From IMG/VR virus record IMGVR_UViG_3300044614_000719, positions 1-64,000 of that record: a DNA stretch of 64,000 nt, one strand, 5' to 3'. Every line of letters begins with the position of its first letter. Position 1 is the first letter of the stretch. The stretch is from a virus. The notes below the pieces were generated by a model that was given only the letters and a program-made list of their open reading frames with translations, did not search any database and had not been told where the DNA came from. Shown piece after piece: positions 29,920-58,730 of this stretch. The position numbers were made by a program, and so were the translations under genes.

Positions 29920-30603
29920 TTATCCGTTGTACTTTGAATCCGGTTCTAGTGCAATCCAATACGATAGATTCATTGTTTCGTGAGTAAACTTACTAACAAC
30001 CTTTTCTGTGATTTCTACATTGTAATCACCATAGATCAACTTTAGATTTTCTACCTTAAAGTAGAATTCAAAGTCTGCATTGGTATCACCCAAATCGACC
30101 GAATAACTATTTGAGGTATCGTCGTTCTTGTCGAGAGCAACAAGTTCCATTCTACCATCATTAGACCGCACGGCAATATCAGGAAGTTGCAGAACAGATG
30201 CTGCCTTTTGCAGTTCTGTAAAGTTCTTTTGGGTTAACTTGAAGTTAACCACACCAGCAGGCATTTGAATCTTCTTTGTGGGTGTGGTCAACAACTTTGG
30301 TTCACAATAAAAATACTTAACAGAAGAACCATTTGAACCAGAAATAACCACATACTTTTGGTGGAATTCAAATTCAGGATCAGTAAACAAACTCACAGTT
30401 CCAAGGAACTTGTTAAGATCCCAAACACCAAACTGAGTATCGAATGTTTCGTCTACAGTTGCTTCTGCTAGAACATTCTTTACTGGGGAAATCGTGGTGA
30501 TAACATTACCCGGATTTACTAGAATGTTGGAATTAATTGATGCATAGTTCTTGAGGATATCAAGAGTTTTCTTTGAGAGTTTAATTGTAGTTGCTGTAGT
30601 CAT
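29920..30603 (-). CDS. 45: Sliding clamp gp45
   Basis: 227 residues (T4 gp45 228). Opens TIKLSKKTLDILKNYASINSNILVNPGN, as in gp45, with predicted two-domain beta-alpha repeats. The trimeric ring tethers gp43 polymerase and, in T4, activates late transcription by touching gp55 and gp33. gp55 is encoded here too, so the same coupling of late transcription to replication is likely. Short gap from gp44. Confidence 0.94.
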   Translation of the reverse strand: MTTATTIKLSKKTLDILKNYASINSNILVNPGNVITTISPVKNVLAEATVDETFDTQFGVWDLNKFLGTVSLFTDPEFEFHQKYVVISGSNGSSVKYFYCEPKLLTTPTKKIQMPAGVVNFKLTQKNFTELQKAASVLQLPDIAVRSNDGRMELVALDKNDDTSNSYSVDLGDTNADFEFYFKVENLKLIYGDYNVEITEKVVSKFTHETMNLSYWIALEPDSKYNG

Positions 30604-37804: not shown

Positions 37805-38850
37805 GTTTCTTGTGAAGAAAGACTTTCCAAATAAAGTTCGTGAATAATCTTCTTTAGTTTTTCTTTATTCTGAACTTCTTGCATCCCATCAATTTCGTTA
37901 TTGATGATGGATACCGTATCCAATGATGCATCAACTTTATCAACCGAAAGTATATCATTGTTTTGCTCTTCCGCAACCGTTAAGTTTGCTACTTGAGCGC
38001 CATAAAGACTATCCATAAATCTATCAAAAATGTATGGTTTAGTTTTTGTTTCTACAATAATTTTTACAAACTTGTTCTTATATTCTGTGAAATCAATTTT
38101 CATGGGATCTTCGTCTTTATCATTATAACGAAGAACATAGAACATTTTGTTTTTATTAGGAATAAATTCCATGACGCGGGTATCTGTGTCAAACACATGG
38201 AAACCTTTGCGTTCATTAACATCACCAAATGTTATTTGATAAGGTGTACCAAGATATGAGATATTCTTGTCTGTTTGCTTGCAATGAAAGTGACCAGAAT
38301 ATACATGTTCAAACTTTGAGAACAAAGATGGATCGGTTCCTTCTTCGTGCTTAACTCCACGCAAAACTTGATACCCGACAAACTCAAAATGACCAAGAAC
38401 AAAATCCGCAGAAGTATTTTTAATAAACTGCAAACTTTGTTCACTATTTGCTTTATTTAACCACGGAACAAATACAAAATCAACTCCACTGAAGTTTACC
38501 TTTGCTGGTAAAAAATCGTATATCTTGAAGTCTCCGTCAAACAATTCTCGAAGAGAGTTAACATCATTAGTATTTCTAAAATAGGTATCATGATTACCCG
38601 CAATACAATGCATTTCGTAGTTGCCATCTTTTAATTTGTCTATAAACCTCTTACGAACTTGATTTAATGTATGAAAATTAACAAACTTGCGGCGATCCAT
38701 AAGATCACCCAAGTGAATTATTGTCTTAATGTTGTGTTCTTCCAAATATGGGAAGAATTGATTTTCAAAAAAGTCTAAGAAGTGATCCAAAAATAATGGA
38801 GCATCATTTCTAGCACCAAAATGAGTATCAGCCAAAAATGCTATTTTCAT
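37801..38850 (-). CDS. 47: Recombination endonuclease subunit gp47 (Mre11/SbcD-like)
   Basis: 349 residues (T4 339). Phosphoesterase motifs in order: FLADTHFGAR (I), HLGDLMDRRK (II), IAGNHDTYFRN (III), LGHFEF (IV) and SGHFHCKQ (V), supplying the two-metal site. Nuclease partner of gp46. ATGA overlaps with both neighbours. Confidence 0.95.
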   Translation of the reverse strand: MKIAFLADTHFGARNDAPLFLDHFLDFFENQFFPYLEEHNIKTIIHLGDLMDRRKFVNFHTLNQVRKRFIDKLKDGNYEMHCIAGNHDTYFRNTNDVNSLRELFDGDFKIYDFLPAKVNFSGVDFVFVPWLNKANSEQSLQFIKNTSADFVLGHFEFVGYQVLRGVKHEEGTDPSLFSKFEHVYSGHFHCKQTDKNISYLGTPYQITFGDVNERKGFHVFDTDTRVMEFIPNKNKMFYVLRYNDKDEDPMKIDFTEYKNKFVKIIVETKTKPYIFDRFMDSLYGAQVANLTVAEEQNNDILSVDKVDASLDTVSIINNEIDGMQEVQNKEKLKKIIHELYLESLSSQET

Positions 38851-39443
38851 TCATCCTCCATTATTAGACTCTTGCGATTTTTCTTTTTATTTTTTGGCTT
38901 TTTGGGTGTCTCTTCATCTAATGTTTTTAAATAATTTTCTTCATCTTCACTTATACCCATATGCTTTAAGTATTCAGATAAATCACCTTTTGTATCCAAA
39001 GACTTTAGGTATTTGTATTTAATTAATGTTTGTTTCTTCTCTTTTTGAATTCTACGCAAGAACGCATAGTAAATTATTTGGGTAAAGTAAGAAAAGGGAT
39101 TATTTGATTTAGTGGGATCAAAGTTTGAGCAATACATCAAACAATTTTCAACCCCATCACCAATCATATCGTCTTTAAATGGATAATTCATAAAGTTTGG
39201 TTTCTTTGCCAAATTTTCAGCAATTTCCATAAAACATTGACCAATATACGGAGTTACTGGTGGTATGGGATCTCCAACCTCTTTTGATTCGTTTACTTTT
39301 GTTTTCCATTCAACCATTTCATCAAAAAACATTTTATTGTTGATGTAATGTGATTTCTTTTGAATTTCTTCAATTACTTCTTCAGGAAGAGGCTCTTCTA
39401 TAACTTCTTCTTGCTTCTTCTTTTTCTTTTTGTTCTTTTTCAT
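38847..39443 (-). CDS. 55: Late sigma factor gp55
   Basis: 198 residues from the ATG at 39443, preceded by GGAG; the open frame extends to 39491 but lacks a ribosome site. The Lys-run N-terminus (KKNKKKKKK) is unusual. The core SHYINNKMFFDEMVEWK ... FKDDMIGDGVENCLMYCSNFDPTKSNNPFSYFTQIIYYAFLRRIQKEKK aligns with gp55, whose region 2-like helices read the TATAAATA late box. The sites found here fit. A sigma70-like promoter lies just upstream. Confidence 0.94.
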   Translation of the reverse strand: MKKNKKKKKKQEEVIEEPLPEEVIEEIQKKSHYINNKMFFDEMVEWKTKVNESKEVGDPIPPVTPYIGQCFMEIAENLAKKPNFMNYPFKDDMIGDGVENCLMYCSNFDPTKSNNPFSYFTQIIYYAFLRRIQKEKKQTLIKYKYLKSLDTKGDLSEYLKHMGISEDEENYLKTLDEETPKKPKNKKKNRKSLIMEDE

Positions 39444-39463
39444 AATGTTCTCCGCTTGTGGGT

Positions 39464-39491
39464 ATGATACTACAACGCTCGCATAAAGCAA
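39464..39491 (-). promoter_or_regulatory. Sigma70-like promoter of gp55
   Basis: TTGCTT (39486-39491), 16-bp spacer, TATCAT (39464-39469), 20 bases before the gp55 ATG. Back-to-back with a consensus plus-strand promoter at 39513-39540. Confidence 0.5.
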
Positions 39492-39512: not shown

Positions 39513-39540
39513 TTGACAGATTTGCGAAACCCCTTATAAT
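39513..39540 (+). promoter_or_regulatory. Consensus sigma70 promoter pointing against all neighbouring genes
   Basis: TTGACA (39513-39518), 16-bp spacer, TATAAT (39535-39540) on the plus strand, both boxes perfect. Every gene within 38 kb to the left and to the window end on the right is on the minus strand, so its product would be antisense to the 39576 gene. Confidence 0.55.
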
Positions 39541-44285: not shown

Positions 44286-44293
44286 TATTTATA
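44286..44293 (-). promoter_or_regulatory. Late promoter of gp23
   Basis: Exact TATAAATA on the minus strand in the gap between gp22 and gp23, 36 bases before the ATG. It gives a short leader with an AAAGGAG ribosome site. Confidence 0.8.
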
Positions 44294-44310
44294 ATTTCTC
44301 AATTTTTGAA

Positions 44311-45528
44311 TTAAGATTTTAGTGTTCTGTTAATTGTGTTTGAATAAAGTTCCATGAGTGGAGAGAGTGTTTCTTGCTCTGGCTCATCTTCAGTTGCTTG
44401 TTCCAAAAGTGTAATTTGTTCATTTACTTTTTGAACATTCTTTGGTGCAACTTTTTTACTTCCAGAAACAACACCTTCAACCAAGGTCTTTACTTTACTG
44501 CGGAAATCTTCTTCTCCAGAGTATTCAAGATTTTCTGCAATCTCTCTTGCTTTTTCTGCTTGAAGAACAGTCAAACCTCTTGTTTCTTCAGCAAATACTC
44601 TTTGAGCAGTTAGTAAACTGATTTCTTGATTGAGAACTACGTTCTTTTCAATCTCTTCGTTTATTCTACCTTCAAGAGTTTCGACTGCTTCTGAAAGTTC
44701 AGCAAACAAATCTACTTTTTCTTCTGGGATTTCAACATAAGATTCTGCAAAAAGATTCTTCAAACCATTGATGAAGTCTTCTGCAATTTCAGTTCTTAAA
44801 CCATTTTCAATGGCAACTGCATTTTCTTTTGCCCACTCTTGAACAACATAAGCCAAATAATTATCAAGTTGTTCTACCAAAGCAGACTTTACAGTTTCTA
44901 CTTCTTCTACCAACTTTTCTTCAAATTGTTCGACTAATGCTTCTGCAATTGTTTCAACCTTTGAAGCAACTGCGGCTTCGTAAATTGAAGCGGCGTTCTT
45001 TACAAAATCTTCAGATAGTTCTTGTGAACCGAAGATTGCTGTAATATCAGAAGCTAATTGTTCGCTGGTCATTTGTGGTGCTTGTGGGGAAGTGAAAGAT
45101 GGCTTCATGTTGAGGGTTGCAGCCAATGCACCTGCATTTCCACCAGTTGGTTGGATGATTTGTTCACCACCACCATGTGCATCTTTTACACCACCACCCA
45201 AGGCATCATGAACATGTCCACTGCCCTTTGTTGGTTGTGGTAATTGACCTTTAAGGGAGATTGAAGCGGCAGCAGATGTAGTAGCAGAACCCTTCATGGC
45301 ATTACCAACTGCTTTAGCAACTGGAGCCTTGTCCTCTGCTTCTTCTTCGCCTTCTTCTTCCTCACCGGCTTCTTCTTCCTCACCGGCTTCTTCTTCGCCT
45401 TCTTCTTCCTCACCGGCTTCTTCTTCTTCGCCTTCTTCTTCCTCGTCCATTTCTTCTTTTTCTTCGACGAGTTCATATGTATCGAATAAATCTTTTACGA
45501 TTTCTTCTGCAATTTTCTTGGGGTCCAT
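44311..45528 (-). CDS. 22: Prohead core scaffold gp22 with acidic repeat
   Basis: 405 residues, longer than T4 gp22 (269). After an N-terminal helix comes an Asp/Glu/Gly/Ala repeat (EEEEGEEEEAGEEEEG...; nt about 45337-45450), then a linker and a helical C-terminal part with coiled-coil character (EEKLVEEVETVKSALVEQL; VETLEGRINEEIEKNVVLNQEI). Position between gp21 and gp23 supports gp22. It forms the core around which the capsid assembles and is later degraded by gp21. Confidence 0.9.
   Translation of the reverse strand: MDPKKIAEEIVKDLFDTYELVEEKEEMDEEEEGEEEEAGEEEEGEEEAGEEEEAGEEEEGEEEAEDKAPVAKAVGNAMKGSATTSAAASISLKGQLPQPTKGSGHVHDALGGGVKDAHGGGEQIIQPTGGNAGALAATLNMKPSFTSPQAPQMTSEQLASDITAIFGSQELSEDFVKNAASIYEAAVASKVETIAEALVEQFEEKLVEEVETVKSALVEQLDNYLAYVVQEWAKENAVAIENGLRTEIAEDFINGLKNLFAESYVEIPEEKVDLFAELSEAVETLEGRINEEIEKNVVLNQEISLLTAQRVFAEETRGLTVLQAEKAREIAENLEYSGEEDFRSKVKTLVEGVVSGSKKVAPKNVQKVNEQITLLEQATEDEPEQETLSPLMELYSNTINRTLKS
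45337..45450 (-). repeat. Tandem repeats encoding a poly-Glu stretch in gp22
   Basis: Imperfect 18-base and longer units (for example TCACCGGCTTCTTCTTCC on the plus strand at 45362 and 45380 and a related copy at 45410) encode EEAGEE-type repeats. Prone to slippage. It produces a false Ser-rich frame on the other strand. Confidence 0.8.
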
Positions 45529-45558
45529 TTGTTAAATCTCCTTGATTTGTCGCTCAGT

Positions 45559-45566
45559 TATTTATA
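45559..45566 (-). promoter_or_regulatory. Late promoter of gp22
   Basis: Exact TATAAATA on the minus strand, 31 bases before the gp22 ATG, in the 42-base gap after gp21. An AAGGAG ribosome site follows. Confidence 0.78.
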
Positions 45567-45570
45567 CATT

Positions 45571-46218
45571 TCACAATTTAGATAAGAAATCGCGGAATAC
45601 TTTTAATTTGGCTTCTTCCAAGTTTCTTGATCCTGCTTTTTCAATTTGTTTTTTGTAATTCTCAATGATTGTTGGTTTGAAAACACCATTGTCCCAAACC
45701 CATTCTTTACCTTCCATGATGCCGTCTACGAATGCGTTTGGTGCAGAGGGATCTGCAACTACATCGACAGCGGCAAGCATGAAGTCTTTTTGGACATAAT
45801 TGACTCCATTGCGCTCAGCCAATGAACCCATACCACGGGTAGACACTCCAAGTTTAGCACCTTCATCAATAAGGTTTTGTACAATTCTACCATATGGGGT
45901 GTCCATGATCTTTGCATTACCCATTACTTGACTACCCTCCACATGAAGATCTTTGATCATGTGGCATACTCTTTCTAAATTAACAGTTGGTCCTTCTGGA
46001 TGTCCAAGTTCACCCAAAGCGCGACTATTTTTTACAAAGGTATCATTGTATGTTTGTACAGCCATCTCCATGACTGGTCCTTCGTAAAATCGTTGATTCT
46101 TGTTTACTTTATTGGACTCTGCGAAAACACCACGAATGAAGTAAGACTTCTTACCACCCTCTGCGGCTTCAGAAACATATTGAATGTCTTGTTGTCTTGT
46201 TTCAGTAATAAGTTTCAT
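45571..46218 (-). CDS. 21: Prohead protease gp21
   Basis: 215 residues (T4 gp21 212). RGVFAESNKVNKNQRFYEGPVMEMAVQTY; catalytic His in ALGELGHPEGP and Ser in GVSTRGMGSLAERNG; KDFMLAAVDVVADPSAPNAFVDGIMEG closes the domain. Serine protease of the gp21/herpes assemblin type, which cleaves scaffold and capsid proteins in the prohead and itself. Confidence 0.95.
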   Translation of the reverse strand: MKLITETRQQDIQYVSEAAEGGKKSYFIRGVFAESNKVNKNQRFYEGPVMEMAVQTYNDTFVKNSRALGELGHPEGPTVNLERVCHMIKDLHVEGSQVMGNAKIMDTPYGRIVQNLIDEGAKLGVSTRGMGSLAERNGVNYVQKDFMLAAVDVVADPSAPNAFVDGIMEGKEWVWDNGVFKPTIIENYKKQIEKAGSRNLEEAKLKVFRDFLSKL

Positions 46219-46223
46219 CTATA

Positions 46224-46499
46224 TTACCCCTTTTTCTTTGCGTTCTTTTGAGCAAGAGCAATAATGTCTCCACGGGTAATCTTATCATGTGGTGCTCTTA
46301 CTGCTGCTAATTGCTCTTTAGATAGTTTCTTTTTTTCCTCTTGTACTTCTTCTGGAGGATTCATCATGGCACCAGCAACGGTTTGCTTTGCGTTGTTCAT
46401 ATACTCTCCTGCTTTTGTGTATAAAGCAGTACGAACTTCTGTTCGGAATTTCTCTAAATTGTTATCGAATAGTGCATCGATTATTTTTTCGCTAGACAT
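46224..46499 (-). CDS. Prohead core protein, gp67/gp68-like
   Basis: 91 residues, between gp20-side genes and gp21, the slot held in T4 by 67 and 68. Acidic/helical N-terminus (EKIIDALFDNNLEKFRTEVRTALYTKAGEYMNN), then EEVQEEKKKLSKEQ and a basic tail (AQKNAKKKG). Prohead core proteins of this kind help determine head shape. Direct similarity to T4 67 is not visible; the call rests on position and composition. Late promoter upstream (46518). Confidence 0.7.
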   Translation of the reverse strand: MSSEKIIDALFDNNLEKFRTEVRTALYTKAGEYMNNAKQTVAGAMMNPPEEVQEEKKKLSKEQLAAVRAPHDKITRGDIIALAQKNAKKKG

Positions 46500-46517
46500 A
46501 GAATACCTCTTTTTTAT

Positions 46518-46525
46518 TATTTATA
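46518..46525 (-). promoter_or_regulatory. Late promoter of the gp67-like and gp21 genes
   Basis: Exact TATAAATA on the minus strand, 19 bases before the ATG at 46499, just past the end of the accessory block. Confidence 0.75.
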
Positions 46526-53800: not shown

Positions 53801-55423
53801 TTACAAAATAGTATCGCCAAATTCACCACCAAACCCATCATCATCCCCATAATCCACGTTACTTAGGAAACCAAAAGGCATAATTTCTTCCTCAATCGCA
53901 TCAATTTGCTTTTGAAATAGAGTCTTTCTTATATCCAAATCTGTCAAATCTTTAAAATAAGTTTGGGTACTTAACCAACCAAAAAGAACCAAGCACATAA
54001 TAAGATCGTCATTGCTGCCAGTATCTGCTTCATATGAATTATTTTTTGAAATAAAGGTAACAAGTTCTCGCATGATATCGATATCGTTTAGTATCAGTTT
54101 GTCACTCTCTATCATACTCTTCAATACGGAGCATCCTAGACGCTTTACAACCTTTGTGGTGCGTACACCCAACTGGGTATCTGAGTTACCAAACCCACCA
54201 TCTAAAGTCTGACCCTTTCTTCCCCGCACAGAAGATATAAGAACATTTTCATATTCTAATTCTTTATATAAAATATCAGCAACTTGTCCGCCAATATCAT
54301 TGATTTCTACTAAAATAAATGCTTCATTATATTCCCTAGAAGTATTCATAATAATATTGGGATATACCATAGGAGAAATCATGTTATTTTTAAATACAGC
54401 AACGACCTTATAGGGCATCTCAGTTATATCAAGTACACAAAATGCACTATAGTCTAATCCTTGACCTCTAGAGGTATCAACCAAAGTCAAATAACTGTGC
54501 TTCTCTTTTGGTTTTTCATAAACTTTCAATCCATCGTCATTTTTATAAATTGGATTGCGGAATACCAAAGTCTTCAATTTATTTGCACTAATGAGTGTAT
54601 TTGTAGAACCAATGAAATCACATTCGTGTTCTGTTCGGAACTTGTCTTCAGAACCCAAGTTACGGATTTCTTGTTCGCGCCAAACTTGATCTCTGCCGGG
54701 AACTTGACTCCAATGGATTTCTACATTCTTAAAGTCGTTTCGGTGTTCCGCAGAATCTACCCAAATCTTATAAAATAAATTCAAACCATTTGGTGTGGAA
54801 ATTATTACTAATTTGGTAGTTTTACCGGAAGTAATTGTTGGAAATACAGAGGTATAGAAATCATTTGCAATGTTTTCAGGAACGTGAGCAAACTCGTCCA
54901 ACATGATAAGATTAAAAGATCCACCACGGATAGCAGATGCAGAGGTTGCAGCAGCAATAATTCTAGAACCGTTTTCCAGTTCTATGCTCATTTTATTCCA
55001 TTCTTTTATACCTTGTTGTAGCCACTTCGGAAGGTATTCGTATGCAACTTTCAATCTATCCATGTGCAACTTTGCTACAGTTTGTTTATTTGCAAGAATA
55101 GCAACATTGCTTGTTGGATTGAAAAGAATATACCAAAGAATATAAGCAACCAGAGTAGTTGACTTACCGCATTGACGAGGCATTTTGCCTATCGTGAATC
55201 TATTTTCATTAATAGTTTCAACAAACAATTCTTGGAAATCAAACATATTAAAATTGATAAGTCCTTTGTCCAGACTTACAATCTTGACATAGTTTTTAAT
55301 AAAGTAAATCGGATCTTGGGAGCACTTAACATATTCTTCTACTTGTTCGGGAGTAAAAGAAACGTTTACATTTGCTCGTTTAAGATTTGGATTTCCAAGA
55401 TATGTTTTTTCTTTATTCTGCAT
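53801..55423 (-). CDS. 17: Terminase large subunit gp17
   Basis: 540 residues (T4 610). Walker A MPRQCGKSTT (about 81-90), Walker B NLIMLDEFAHVPE with the catalytic Glu, coupling motif LVIISTPNG, and the RNase H-like nuclease with LTLVDTSRGQGLDYSAFCVLD and its later acidic residues (GSNDDLIMCLVLF). It packages concatemeric DNA into proheads. Its 5' end overlaps gp16. Confidence 0.97.
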   Translation of the reverse strand: MQNKEKTYLGNPNLKRANVNVSFTPEQVEEYVKCSQDPIYFIKNYVKIVSLDKGLINFNMFDFQELFVETINENRFTIGKMPRQCGKSTTLVAYILWYILFNPTSNVAILANKQTVAKLHMDRLKVAYEYLPKWLQQGIKEWNKMSIELENGSRIIAAATSASAIRGGSFNLIMLDEFAHVPENIANDFYTSVFPTITSGKTTKLVIISTPNGLNLFYKIWVDSAEHRNDFKNVEIHWSQVPGRDQVWREQEIRNLGSEDKFRTEHECDFIGSTNTLISANKLKTLVFRNPIYKNDDGLKVYEKPKEKHSYLTLVDTSRGQGLDYSAFCVLDITEMPYKVVAVFKNNMISPMVYPNIIMNTSREYNEAFILVEINDIGGQVADILYKELEYENVLISSVRGRKGQTLDGGFGNSDTQLGVRTTKVVKRLGCSVLKSMIESDKLILNDIDIMRELVTFISKNNSYEADTGSNDDLIMCLVLFGWLSTQTYFKDLTDLDIRKTLFQKQIDAIEEEIMPFGFLSNVDYGDDDGFGGEFGDTIL

Positions 55424-55868
55424 CTATAATATCGCCATTATTTTCTAACTTCTCAATTTCTTTTATTTTTCCACGAAGCAGTTTTTGCAGATCTGCCGTG
55501 CTACCGACAAATATAGAATTGTTGGTAGTTACAGAATTGGGAGTATTGGTTTGAGGTTCTCCTTTAATAACCTTCATCTTGTTGTGCATATCCAACAGAT
55601 CTTTATTCGTCTCAGCAACAGTTTTAATTAATTGTGCAAGAACTTCATATGCTCTTGGTTGTTCTGTTTCCGATGCTAAATTCAGAATACCATCTATAGC
55701 AGATGTACCTTTGTTTATTAGTTCTTTTAAATTATCTCTTACCGTGAGATAATCTTTATCCAGATCGTCCTTTTGAACAGTAATTTCTGTTGCTTTGCGT
55801 AATTGTGGGACTTCTGGTTCTGGGGTTGGTTCTATATTAAATTGTTTTTCCAGTTCATCAAATGACAT
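55413..55868 (-). CDS. 16: Terminase small subunit gp16
   Basis: 151 residues (T4 164). Mostly helical: KDYLTVRDNLKELINKGTSAIDGILNLASETEQPRAYEVLAQLIKTVAETNKDLLDMHNKMKVIKG, matching the gp16 central region. Recognises DNA and stimulates gp17. Overlaps gp17 by 11 bases. Confidence 0.9.
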   Translation of the reverse strand: MSFDELEKQFNIEPTPEPEVPQLRKATEITVQKDDLDKDYLTVRDNLKELINKGTSAIDGILNLASETEQPRAYEVLAQLIKTVAETNKDLLDMHNKMKVIKGEPQTNTPNSVTTNNSIFVGSTADLQKLLRGKIKEIEKLENNGDIIDAE

Positions 55869-55878
55869 AATGTATCCA

Positions 55879-56046
55879 TTAATATTCTGTGATTGTTTGT
55901 TTTATATCGTAGTCATCACTGGGAACTACTTGTACTCCAGACTTTAATTCAATTTTATCGCCATTAGTATCTAGGACATAATCATCATTGGTGTCCTTTA
56001 AATATACCACTGGCTCTATATGAATGTTTACTAATTTCTTTGCCAT
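55879..56046 (-). CDS. Short 55-residue protein between gp15 and gp16
   Basis: ATG at 56046 to TAA at 55879, one base after the gp15 stop. The product begins MAKKLVNIHIEPVVYLKDTNDD and contains VLDTNGDKIELKSGVQVVPSDDYD. It fills the only spare space between gp15 and gp16. No family recognised; the frame is uninterrupted and the coding density around it argues that it is real. Confidence 0.6.
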   Translation of the reverse strand: MAKKLVNIHIEPVVYLKDTNDDYVLDTNGDKIELKSGVQVVPSDDYDIKQTITEY

Positions 56047-56047
56047 A

Positions 56048-56716
56048 TTAATCCAAATTAAAAAGATTAACGTCGATAGTTTTGATAAGTCCTGCTTCTC
56101 TTACTGGTCCATAGTAATAAGTTCTAGCGACAAATTGCAATTCAAATATAATAGATCTTTGGTTGTCGTCTTTAAAAGAACCTTCGAATTGCTGATCAGT
56201 ATTGGTACTAACCAATGTAATCGGAATATCTAGTTTTTCATAACCATCACTCAATACACTTGGTTTAATTGTTATTGTGAATTCTGGTGTAAAGAATGGG
56301 AATATTTGTTCAATAATTTTTAAACCATCATCCATAGTACGGCTATAAATGAATAAAGAAAATGTTAATTTATATGGTACTTCATTAAAGTGATAATTAA
56401 TAATAACATCACCATTTGTTTGTACCTTTTCTGCTCGTCTCTTTGTTGAACTGTTTAATTTTCTTTCCGTATCGTATTCCAATCCCGTCATCATAAATGA
56501 CATTCTTGGTATTCCGAGAGCAGTAGCATATGCAACAGGATCATCCAATTCCAAATTTAAACGCTCCATCATTCTTTCTTTTGGAGCATATGTTAATGGA
56601 ACTTTTATTTTCTTGTAAGTATTGCCGGAACCACGTTCTATGTAAATGTTATTAAACAGCGTACCGAACGCCGCTGTTATCTTTTTTGTAATTCCGTGAT
56701 AAAACGTGGTAAACAT
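56048..56716 (-). CDS. 15: Tail terminator and sheath stabiliser gp15
   Basis: 222 residues (T4 272). TTFYHGITKKITAAFGTLFNNIYIERGSGNTYKKIKVPLTYAPKERMMERL is diagnostic of gp15; later FPFFTPEFTITIKP. The hexamer caps the tail and joins it to the neck. Confidence 0.94.
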   Translation of the reverse strand: MFTTFYHGITKKITAAFGTLFNNIYIERGSGNTYKKIKVPLTYAPKERMMERLNLELDDPVAYATALGIPRMSFMMTGLEYDTERKLNSSTKRRAEKVQTNGDVIINYHFNEVPYKLTFSLFIYSRTMDDGLKIIEQIFPFFTPEFTITIKPSVLSDGYEKLDIPITLVSTNTDQQFEGSFKDDNQRSIIFELQFVARTYYYGPVREAGLIKTIDVNLFNLD

Positions 56717-57432
56717 TAATACTTATTCTCCGAGAATGGATCTATTTCAGTAAAATCAATCAAATCTCTTGTACCAGATTGTAGTATATCATTATCACTT
56801 TGTTGTTTTTTATCTTTAACCGATGTGATGGTTTCGTCTATAATTCCATCGGAGTTATAGTCCATTTGTTCCGTAACAGTTTGCGTCAAATTTGTTTGTA
56901 TTGAATCTATTTCGGATATACCAGTATTCAAGTTTTCGTAAGAGTACTTGAAGAGTTCGCATTCTAATTTATATGTGTATAGTTTTCCAAATTGATAAAA
57001 TACTTCTTTATTATCTACGTATTTAATTTCAAACAAACCCTTTGAGAATGGATGGAAAATTAAATCACCTTCCATTGGGTTGCTTATTTGTACTGGACGA
57101 TCTGCCATTACTTCAAATTTTGCTGCTTCTCTTTGAAATCTTCTTTTTGAAACAACTAAACTTAATGTATCTCTTATTTCTAAACCAAACTTTGAAATAA
57201 TTTCGCGCTCTCCAGAAAACCCAGAGTAGTTGTCCATAAACATTTCTATTTGTATTGCATCTTTAAAATAAGAAGTTGCATCTTCACCAAACAACTGATC
57301 TAAATTTGCAAATCTACGAGGAATGTAATAGACATTTATTCCATTAATTTTAATGGATTCCTCAATAAGATCTTCCATGAGATCTTGTTGAGGTTTATAG
57401 GCGTAATTATTGAAGTGTGGATTTAAAGCCAT
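56716..57432 (-). CDS. 14: Neck protein gp14
   Basis: 238 residues (T4 256). ALNPHFNNYAYKPQQDLMEDLIEESIKINGINVYYIPR and LIFHPFSKGLFEIKYVDNKEVFYQFGKLYTYKLECELFKYS match gp14. With gp13 it forms the neck that seals the filled head and attaches the tail. One base overlaps gp15. Confidence 0.94.
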   Translation of the reverse strand: MALNPHFNNYAYKPQQDLMEDLIEESIKINGINVYYIPRRFANLDQLFGEDATSYFKDAIQIEMFMDNYSGFSGEREIISKFGLEIRDTLSLVVSKRRFQREAAKFEVMADRPVQISNPMEGDLIFHPFSKGLFEIKYVDNKEVFYQFGKLYTYKLECELFKYSYENLNTGISEIDSIQTNLTQTVTEQMDYNSDGIIDETITSVKDKKQQSDNDILQSGTRDLIDFTEIDPFSENKY

Positions 57433-57433
57433 T

Positions 57434-58258
57434 TTATCCTATAAATCCTTGTGGTGGGAGTTCGTATTTGGCTTGAATTTCGTTTTCTATTTTTTCAACT
57501 TCTGATTTTGCTTCAGATGCCATATTAGCACCATTAAATGAAACACCACCCGGTAAACTCATACCACTAAACTTAGATAGATTTAATCCCCATTGTTGTT
57601 TAATTAAAGCTGTTAAATACATTTTTAATAAACGATCATTGTAAATTTCTGGATACAATGAAGGATCGAGAATTTTATATGCTTCAAATACTAAGTAATT
57701 ACCCTTAGTCATTTTTTCTGACCAATTGGTTTCTACATAAATCCGATTGGTAACGCGACTAAACTCAATCATCTTTTCGGGGGTCAACATATCCTGAAGC
57801 ATTTGCATATGACTTCTTGTTATGTTATAACCAATTAACGAGTCACCATATGTGTTGGTTCTTAACCCATATAAGTCATTTAACGCGATTTGATACTTTG
57901 CATCAAACATACCCAAACCACCCAAAGTATCAAATAATTGAAAGCAACGAATTACACTAATTATTGAATTACCATCTGGGTCTAATGCAGGTGCTGCTTT
58001 AATTTCTATACCATCGTCAGTTGCAGCCAAAGTTGGTTGGGTTAAATCTATATAACCCCGCTCTATGTCTTGCTGGGTCACTTGTTTTCTTAAATAAACT
58101 CTCTCCACACCATCAAAATGGTATTCGGCAAAAAACTGTAAAGCATCGTCCACACGATCCTCTATTTGCGAATCATCCACGTTGATTTGTACAACAGGAT
58201 AACCGAGTCGTCTTAGACAATAATCTTTAAGTTGTTCCCTTGTTGAAGGTTTTGCCAT
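57434..58258 (-). CDS. 13: Neck protein gp13
   Basis: 274 residues (T4 309). STREQLKDYCLRRLGYPVVQINVDDSQIEDRVDDALQFFAEYHFDG is diagnostic; LNDLYGLRTN and LIKQQWGLNLSKFSGMSLPGG support it. Start ATG at 58258. Its strong AAGGAG Shine-Dalgarno lies in a perfect hairpin with a late promoter in the loop (58266-58304), so its translation is probably blocked on early transcripts and open on late ones. Confidence 0.94.
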   Translation of the reverse strand: MAKPSTREQLKDYCLRRLGYPVVQINVDDSQIEDRVDDALQFFAEYHFDGVERVYLRKQVTQQDIERGYIDLTQPTLAATDDGIEIKAAPALDPDGNSIISVIRCFQLFDTLGGLGMFDAKYQIALNDLYGLRTNTYGDSLIGYNITRSHMQMLQDMLTPEKMIEFSRVTNRIYVETNWSEKMTKGNYLVFEAYKILDPSLYPEIYNDRLLKMYLTALIKQQWGLNLSKFSGMSLPGGVSFNGANMASEAKSEVEKIENEIQAKYELPPQGFIG

Positions 58259-58265
58259 ATGTAAA

Positions 58266-58304
58266 ATCTCCTTGGTTCTACATTATTTATAAAACCAAGG
58301 AGAT
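58266..58304 (-). promoter_or_regulatory. Hairpin sequestering the gp13 Shine-Dalgarno
   Basis: Arms 58266-58277 and 58293-58304 pair perfectly for 12 bp with a 15-base loop. The 3' arm in the transcript holds AAGGAG of gp13; the loop contains TATAAATA (58284-58291). On the plus strand the stem is followed by CCTTTTTT and would act as a terminator. Transcripts starting upstream would form the hairpin; those starting at the late box (predicted +1 near 58278) would lack the 5' arm. Confidence 0.75.
58284..58291 (-). promoter_or_regulatory. Late promoter of gp13 inside the hairpin loop
   Basis: Exact TATAAATA on the minus strand. Counting six bases from the end of the box gives a start near 58278, at the edge of the 3' arm, so late mRNA cannot form the hairpin. 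Confidence 0.75.
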
Positions 58305-58327
58305 CCTTTTTTGTAAATGTTATTTAC

Positions 58328-58675
58328 TTATTCTTTAAACAAATATTGAATTTTTGCTAAATCAGCAACCGAAAGTTTCATATTATCACCCAAAGTATCT
58401 ACTTCAATTGGTTCCCATGAGACATCTACTTCTTCGTTTAAAAACTCACTAAATTCTTTCAAAAATAGTTCTTTATTTTCATCCGAAACAACCGTACCAT
58501 CTGGTGCGTATTGCTTTACCAACTTTAATCTTTGATCTTCTACTAACTTGACTTCAGCGTTTAGAACATTTAGCAACTTCATTAGTTTAAATGAAATCTT
58601 AGTTGGGAGTGGTTCTTCAATTAGTTTGTTTAAAACAGATACAGAACTATAAATATCAATCAATCGAACTTTCAT
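58328..58675 (-). CDS. Small early-type protein, DUF1617-like
   Basis: 115 residues. KVRLIDIYSSVSVLNKLIEEPLPTKISFKLMKLLNVLNAEVKLVEDQRLKLVKQYA and the closing MKLSVADLAKIQYLFKE resemble the small DUF1617 family of phage proteins. It is the only gene of its transcript, with a perfect promoter upstream and the gp13 hairpin downstream. Helical; function unknown. Being early-transcribed amid late genes suggests a non-virion role. Confidence 0.72.
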   Translation of the reverse strand: MKVRLIDIYSSVSVLNKLIEEPLPTKISFKLMKLLNVLNAEVKLVEDQRLKLVKQYAPDGTVVSDENKELFLKEFSEFLNEEVDVSWEPIEVDTLGDNMKLSVADLAKIQYLFKE

Positions 58676-58701: not shown

Positions 58702-58730
58702 ATTATATAGTCAATAAAAGTAAATGTCAA
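58702..58730 (-). promoter_or_regulatory. Perfect sigma70 promoter
   Basis: TTGACA (58725-58730), 17-bp spacer, TATAAT (58702-58707): full consensus. The -35 box overlaps the stop of the large gene to its right. It drives the 115-residue gene and would read into the gp13 hairpin. Confidence 0.85.

Follow-up and report, generated by a model that had tools for sequence, protein, structure and literature searches.

The leader of gp13, a neck gene of an uncultured T4-type phage, probably acts in cis to switch translation on or off according to the promoter used, as described for T4 gene e and I-TevI, a mechanism to which its structure and conservation point. We propose that RNA begun upstream, e.g., from the early-type promoter at 58730-58702, would carry both arms of a hairpin, which would fold and hide the gp13 Shine-Dalgarno sequence; gp13 would then remain untranslated, and perhaps gp14 and gp15 too, by coupling. 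A gp55-type RNA polymerase would fire from TATAAATA between the two arms, and the RNA would begin near 58278 without the 5' arm. On this late RNA the ribosome site would be open, and the neck protein would be made late. The proposal is carried by the anatomy of the leader, its conservation with compensatory change, the computed masking and unmasking of the ribosome site, and the gp55 and gp45 homologues encoded in the same genome.

The window, i.e., the whole stretch analysed, comprised 64,000 bases of a 94,760-base IMG/VR virus record, and the remainder of the record was also read (Table 1). Among annotated proteins, gp13 best matched T4-like phage neck proteins, with identities of roughly 44%. 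The stop codon of the 115-aa ORF upstream lies 69 nt from the gp13 ATG, and the intergenic sequence reads AAAGGATCTCCTTGGTTTTATAAATAATGTAGAACCAAGGAGATTTTACAT-ATG. Downstream, the gp13, gp14 and gp15 genes abut or overlap. The original prediction had the hairpin guard a neck gene that heads the whole morphogenesis run; gp13 is indeed first of the run, but the masked ribosome site is that of gp13 only, and silencing beyond gp13 would require translational coupling. A gp55-type late sigma factor is required for the use of TATAAATA, and gp45 is the co-activator in T4 late transcription; homologues of both are encoded in the window.

Table 1. Positions of the gp13 leader elements and of the genes and motifs related to them in the window.
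Feature	Position	Strand	Remarks
Hairpin	58266..58304	-	perfect 12-bp core stem, 58304-58293 / 58277-58266
gp13 Shine-Dalgarno AAGGAG	58268..58273	-	entirely within 3' arm
T4-type late promoter motif, exact TATAAATA	58284..58291	-	between core arms; predicted start near 58278
Consensus sigma-70 (early-type) promoter TTGACA-17-TATAAT	58702..58730	-	exact; TTGACA at 58730-58725, 17-nt spacer, TATAAT at 58707-58702
Upstream ORF, 115 aa, function unknown	58328..58675	-	phrog_1401; co-directional with gp13
gp13, neck protein / head-tail adaptor Ad2, 274 aa	57434..58258	-	phrog_211, E 1.2e-36
Same-strand run downstream of gp13	53801..57432	-	gp14, gp15, 55-aa ORF, gp16, gp17
gp14	57432-56716	-	
gp15	56716-56048	-	
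55-aa ORF		-	between gp15 and gp16
gp16	55868-55413	-	
gp17	55423-53801	-	
TATAAATA motifs without hairpin	44286..46525	-	starts 46525, 45566, 44293; precede 91-aa ORF adjoining gp21, gp22 (scaffold), gp23 (major head protein)
gp55-type late sigma factor	38847..39491	-	E 2.1e-58; also phrog_234
gp45-type sliding clamp	29929..30585	-	phrog_223, E 8.7e-80

Among 50,697 phage records, neither the 115-aa ORF nor the gp13 leader had a real match (leader matches were short, with E 0.3 or worse), and no gp13 relatives were found in the GTDB genome contigs scanned. Rfam 15 gave no gathering-score match anywhere in the window, and no tRNA was found in it. A perfect TTGACA-16-TATAAT occurs at 39513-39540 (+), between gp55 and the next gene and antisense to the genes there; no plus-strand gene lies downstream of it, and it is possibly a source of antisense or small RNA. 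The gp55 homologue of one relative, L324 (G008:C1:43953-44447), contained one in-frame TGA within the matched stretch.

On the minus strand, the leader reads ATCTCCTTGGTT-TTATAAATAATGTAG-AACCAAGGAGAT. A perfect 12-bp stem with the gp13 AAGGAG in its 3' arm had been predicted, and every coordinate was right; AAGGAG stands 9 nt ahead of the gp13 ATG at 58258. An exact TATAAATA in the loop, with a late start near 58278, had been predicted as well, and the motif was confirmed at 58291-58284, between the core arms. The T4 late motif occupies positions -13 to -6; therefore, the predicted +1 falls at 58278, a G, where TATAAATA would start the late RNA. In the predicted fold, the stem lengthens to 20 bp (58307-58288 / 58282-58263) via G-U and A-U pairs, and thus, in the minimum-energy structure, TATAAATA has its first four bases within the stem and the loop is down to 5 nt. 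The folding energy over 101 nt was -27.9 kcal/mol with z = -5.7, and 0/200 shuffles were equally stable. No second copy of the hairpin was found in the 94,760-bp record. No comparable hairpin was found at the three other TATAAATA leaders of the same genome (91-aa ORF, gp22 and gp23), indicating that a promoter and a Shine-Dalgarno sequence alone do not create one. As a counterpoint to the switch, these other late genes manage without a hairpin.

We folded both RNAs to compare the accessibility of the ribosome site. Opening AAGGAG cost 13.7 kcal/mol in the upstream-started RNA and 1.2 kcal/mol in the RNA from 58278. In RNA from the predicted early start, the unpaired probability of each AAGGAG base was approximately 0.001 or less, whether the fold included the whole gp13 gene or not. 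The gp13 ribosome site was the least accessible among 50 genes with a recognisable site. The core 5' arm is on the upstream side of TATAAATA, and any RNA that starts downstream of the motif therefore lacks it; for RNA starts from 58283 to 58275 with the whole gene folded, the mean unpaired probability of AAGGAG was 0.70-0.86, and masking was lost at every start tried. Across the window and its relatives, the long RNA was computed to mask the ribosome site, and the predicted late RNA to leave it more open, in 37/37 leaders. It was 0.42-0.97 unpaired in the predicted late RNAs, and the long-RNA masking was weakest in the relatives L021 and L024 (0.25 unpaired). These folds agree with the claim that late mRNA without the 5' arm exposes the site, and masking of the site would lower gp13 translation.

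Relatives were collected by the gp13 protein alone, ignoring the leader, which gave 36 IMG/VR relatives with a readable leader at 68-100% identity; one further relative (L054) was left out of the leader set as its sequence ends inside the gene. All 36 retained the 5' arm, the late promoter and the masked Shine-Dalgarno sequence, and the late motif was TATAAATA in 35 of them and CATAAATA in the remaining one (L026). The arms themselves differed, being CTCCTTGGTT/AACCAAGGAG in the window, CTCCTCTTTAT/ATAAAGAGGAG in L018, CTCCTCAATT/AATTGAGGAG in L028 and CTCCTTATATA/TATATAAGGAG in L025. An alignment of the leader in relatives had been set beforehand as a test of compensation. We assessed pairing in 21 distinct leaders with the arms anchored solely on the CTCC and GGAG cores. 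Outside this core, 83% of cells paired, compared with 59% when whole arms were dealt to other sequences (sd 3%; maximum of 2000 shuffles, 71%) and 46-56% when the registers were slid by 1-3; that is, stem changes are compensated in relatives. Parsimony on the gp13 tree gave approximately 25 two-sided compensatory changes over eleven stem positions, an upper-leaning estimate because ties were broken toward paired states, and three positions had 4-5 compensatory events each. RNAalifold on a plain MAFFT alignment recovered a 5-pair core only because stem lengths differ, which was solved by anchoring the arms on CTCC/GGAG. Compensatory mutation has thus preserved the hairpin across a wide clade, direct evidence of selection on the RNA fold itself. 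The hairpin pattern was present at gp13 in 10/10 records tested. The collections searched contained no cultured phage of this clade, and six cultured T4-like phages from outside it lacked the pattern at gp13; in the pelagiphage Mosig, TATAAATA precedes gp13, yet the hairpin is absent.

A perfect early promoter giving read-through RNA that folds the hairpin was also part of the original prediction. The exact site was found 55 nt ahead of the 115-aa ORF, and RNA begun there or further upstream would reach gp13. Three 12/12 sigma-70 sites occur in the 94,760-bp record, and another of them lies 52 nt upstream of the gene for ribonucleotide reductase, a typical early gene. Sites at 11/12 or better numbered 8 against 5.6 expected by chance; therefore, the weight falls on the perfect match and its persistence. 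L010-L015 lack an early-type promoter, as do the clades L021-L036 over the 200 nt upstream. In the relatives L002-L008, L016 and L017, a site scoring 11/12 or 12/12 has persisted at almost the same position despite drift of its flanks. The near-consensus early promoter is thus limited to the window and these nine nearest relatives, and the hairpin is far more widespread, so that early RNA cannot be the sole target. Judged from this distribution, the hairpin is older and wider than the early promoter. The likeliest reading is that it silences gp13 on any upstream-started RNA, early RNA included in the window lineage. The T4-style interpretation is well supported after this narrowing of its early-only part.

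The same distribution bears on the possibility that the hairpin insulates gp13 by promoter identity, uncoupling it from all upstream transcription, including late RNA of upstream structural genes, with the gp13 dose then set by its own late promoter only. We consider this reading possible and hold it tentatively. It is consistent with retention of the hairpin where an early-type promoter is not visible, and with the same-strand upstream genes, which include very large ORFs. In addition, a CATAAATA motif stands at 72040, a record position outside the window, and late RNA from it that reads into gp13 could then also be silenced by the hairpin. However, the molecular mechanism would be identical to that of the timing switch, the sole difference being which RNA matters, and the consensus early-type promoter was retained in 10 loci despite flank drift, which favours a timing role in the window lineage. 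Timing would then be the benefit of the switch.

It is unlikely that the hairpin is an intrinsic terminator with an embedded late promoter, which mainly ends the RNA of the upstream gene and overlaps the gp13 ribosome site incidentally. The window clade and L018-L020, L023 and L037 do have 5-7 T in nine bases or fewer after the 3' arm, and T6 follows the hairpin on the plus strand. However, 15/37 leaders (clades L021-L036) have just 0-4 T behind the arm and still retain the hairpin and the masked site, i.e., a U tract after the stem is not conserved in relatives. Moreover, the arm always covers the Shine-Dalgarno sequence, which is needless for termination, and there is no upstream plus-strand gene to terminate. 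In L018-L020, L023 and L037, the 3' arm directly abuts T6-T7 ahead of the gp13 ATG, and the hairpin could therefore double as an intrinsic terminator there; termination and masking could coexist in the T-rich clades.

Translational coupling, in which ribosomes finishing the upstream ORF would open the hairpin and gp13 would be made in proportion, is more doubtful still. In its favour, only 43-46 nt separate the upstream stop from gp13 in the clades L021-L036, and the stop nearly touches the 5' arm (a gap of a few nt), whereas the stop in the window clade lies 69 nt before gp13 and approximately 20 nt before the extended 5' arm, which is probably too far to open it; coupling would also leave the late promoter between the arms unexplained. 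A chance palindrome, formed by a fortuitous anti-Shine-Dalgarno sequence upstream or by the mirror-image Shine-Dalgarno sequence of a divergent gene as in the T4 divergent pairs 26/51 and 4/53, has a negligible probability and was rejected, given the co-directional upstream gene, the conservation in 36/36 relatives and the covariation of the stem. In T4 (NC_000866), 77344-77379 and 116435-116473 are the palindromic leaders of the divergent late pairs 4/53 and 26/51, with TATAAATA inside, and they arise because the Shine-Dalgarno sequence of each gene is the anti-Shine-Dalgarno sequence of the other.

We then compared the gp13 switch with known masked leaders. In T4, masked leaders are known for e, soc, 49 and I-TevI, as the original prediction had stated, and expression of e falls about 100-fold when it lies on long RNA, a block lifted on RNA from the late promoters (PMC3014915). 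Further masked leaders are those of I-TevII, I-TevIII, segB and Aeh1 mobE, and such masked genes are late genes on long early and middle transcripts (PMC2988022). As predicted for the gp13 leader, the Shine-Dalgarno sequence of T4 e is masked on upstream-started RNA and TATAAATA promoters yield a shorter late RNA (PMC3014915; recomputed here). T4 e differs in having two promoters with promoter bases within the stem, whereas gp13 has a separate 12-bp arm wholly upstream of one promoter; in addition, e is a lysis gene and gp13 a neck gene. I-TevI, I-TevII, I-TevIII, segB and Aeh1 mobE likewise have a late promoter in the hairpin region and a ribosome site masked on early and middle RNA (PMC2988022, PMC3014915). 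Unlike gp13, the homing endonucleases are mobile, non-essential genes, and I-TevI binds and represses its own promoter, a repression of which there was no sign at gp13. T4 gene 49 (endonuclease VII) has a stable leader hairpin with the late motif AATAAATA just ahead; however, it is a recombination gene, and its motif lies upstream of the core stem and not between full arms. T4 soc is a virion protein gene with a reported inhibitory leader structure (PMC3014915), but it encodes a capsid decoration protein and its Shine-Dalgarno sequence was mostly open in our recomputed fold (0.76 unpaired). As this fold leaves the site unmasked, soc is the least similar precedent.

In the gp13 leader, the Shine-Dalgarno sequence lies in a helix, the promoter is placed such that RNA from the predicted start loses the 5' arm, gp55- and gp45-type genes are present, and the helix is conserved with compensation. 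On these sequence features, the leader would be best filed in the known T4 masked-leader class (e, 49, I-TevI). No report of a masked leader at gp13 was found in the literature searched, the scope of which excluded most subscription journals.

The IMG/VR collection was scanned with the pattern CTCCTT-(0-8)-TATAAATA-(2-22)-AAGGAG. At least 120 stretches matched, compared with 31 over the whole collection for a control with a non-complementary 5' arm and 95, some of them shared, for a control with a scrambled promoter. Distinct matches numbered at least 61, versus 13 and 26 in the respective controls, when a correctly spaced gene start and an upstream gene in the same direction were required; at least 49 remained, versus 4 and 19, when the stem also had to run for 9 bp or more without a gap. 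Some of the pattern matches are surely due to chance. A divergent-looking arrangement occurred in 4/72 distinct gene-linked matches, among the matches listed. The genes downstream, again among the matches listed, included gp13, tail tube, baseplate hub lysozyme, baseplate wedge, terminase and gp14, as well as endonuclease VII (the function of T4 gene 49) and homing endonucleases; the portal match (L164) had a stem of 7 bp only. Such hairpins stand ahead of late genes in L091, L105, L109, L137, L184, L188, L201 and others, which are unrelated uncultured phages. These matches suggest that the same layout may precede other late genes of uncultured phages.

A second gp13 lineage (247 aa) has the same hairpin and late promoter, at L116:5775-5803 and L122:120-149. 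In the tree, these gp13 proteins are far from the window clade and near that of Stenotrophomonas phage DLP6, which itself lacks the hairpin. Their hairpin is probably of independent origin; alternatively, the hairpin may have been lost elsewhere. It is an even call whether the late-promoter-in-hairpin switch is recurrent, having evolved repeatedly for core virion genes across uncultured T4-type phages, i.e., at least twice for the neck gene gp13 and also for tail tube, baseplate hub lysozyme and wedge, gp14 head closure, terminase and perhaps portal. If this is true, the switch would be no T4 curiosity of lysis and homing genes. In T4, the best-studied examples control the genes for lysozyme, homing endonucleases and a recombination nuclease; the gp13 case would put the switch in front of a core virion gene that heads a morphogenesis run. 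Metagenome scans for its compact sequence signature could pick out late genes that lie within regions transcribed from upstream, and the gp13 leader is ready-made for a reporter study of how virion assembly proteins may be kept off until late.
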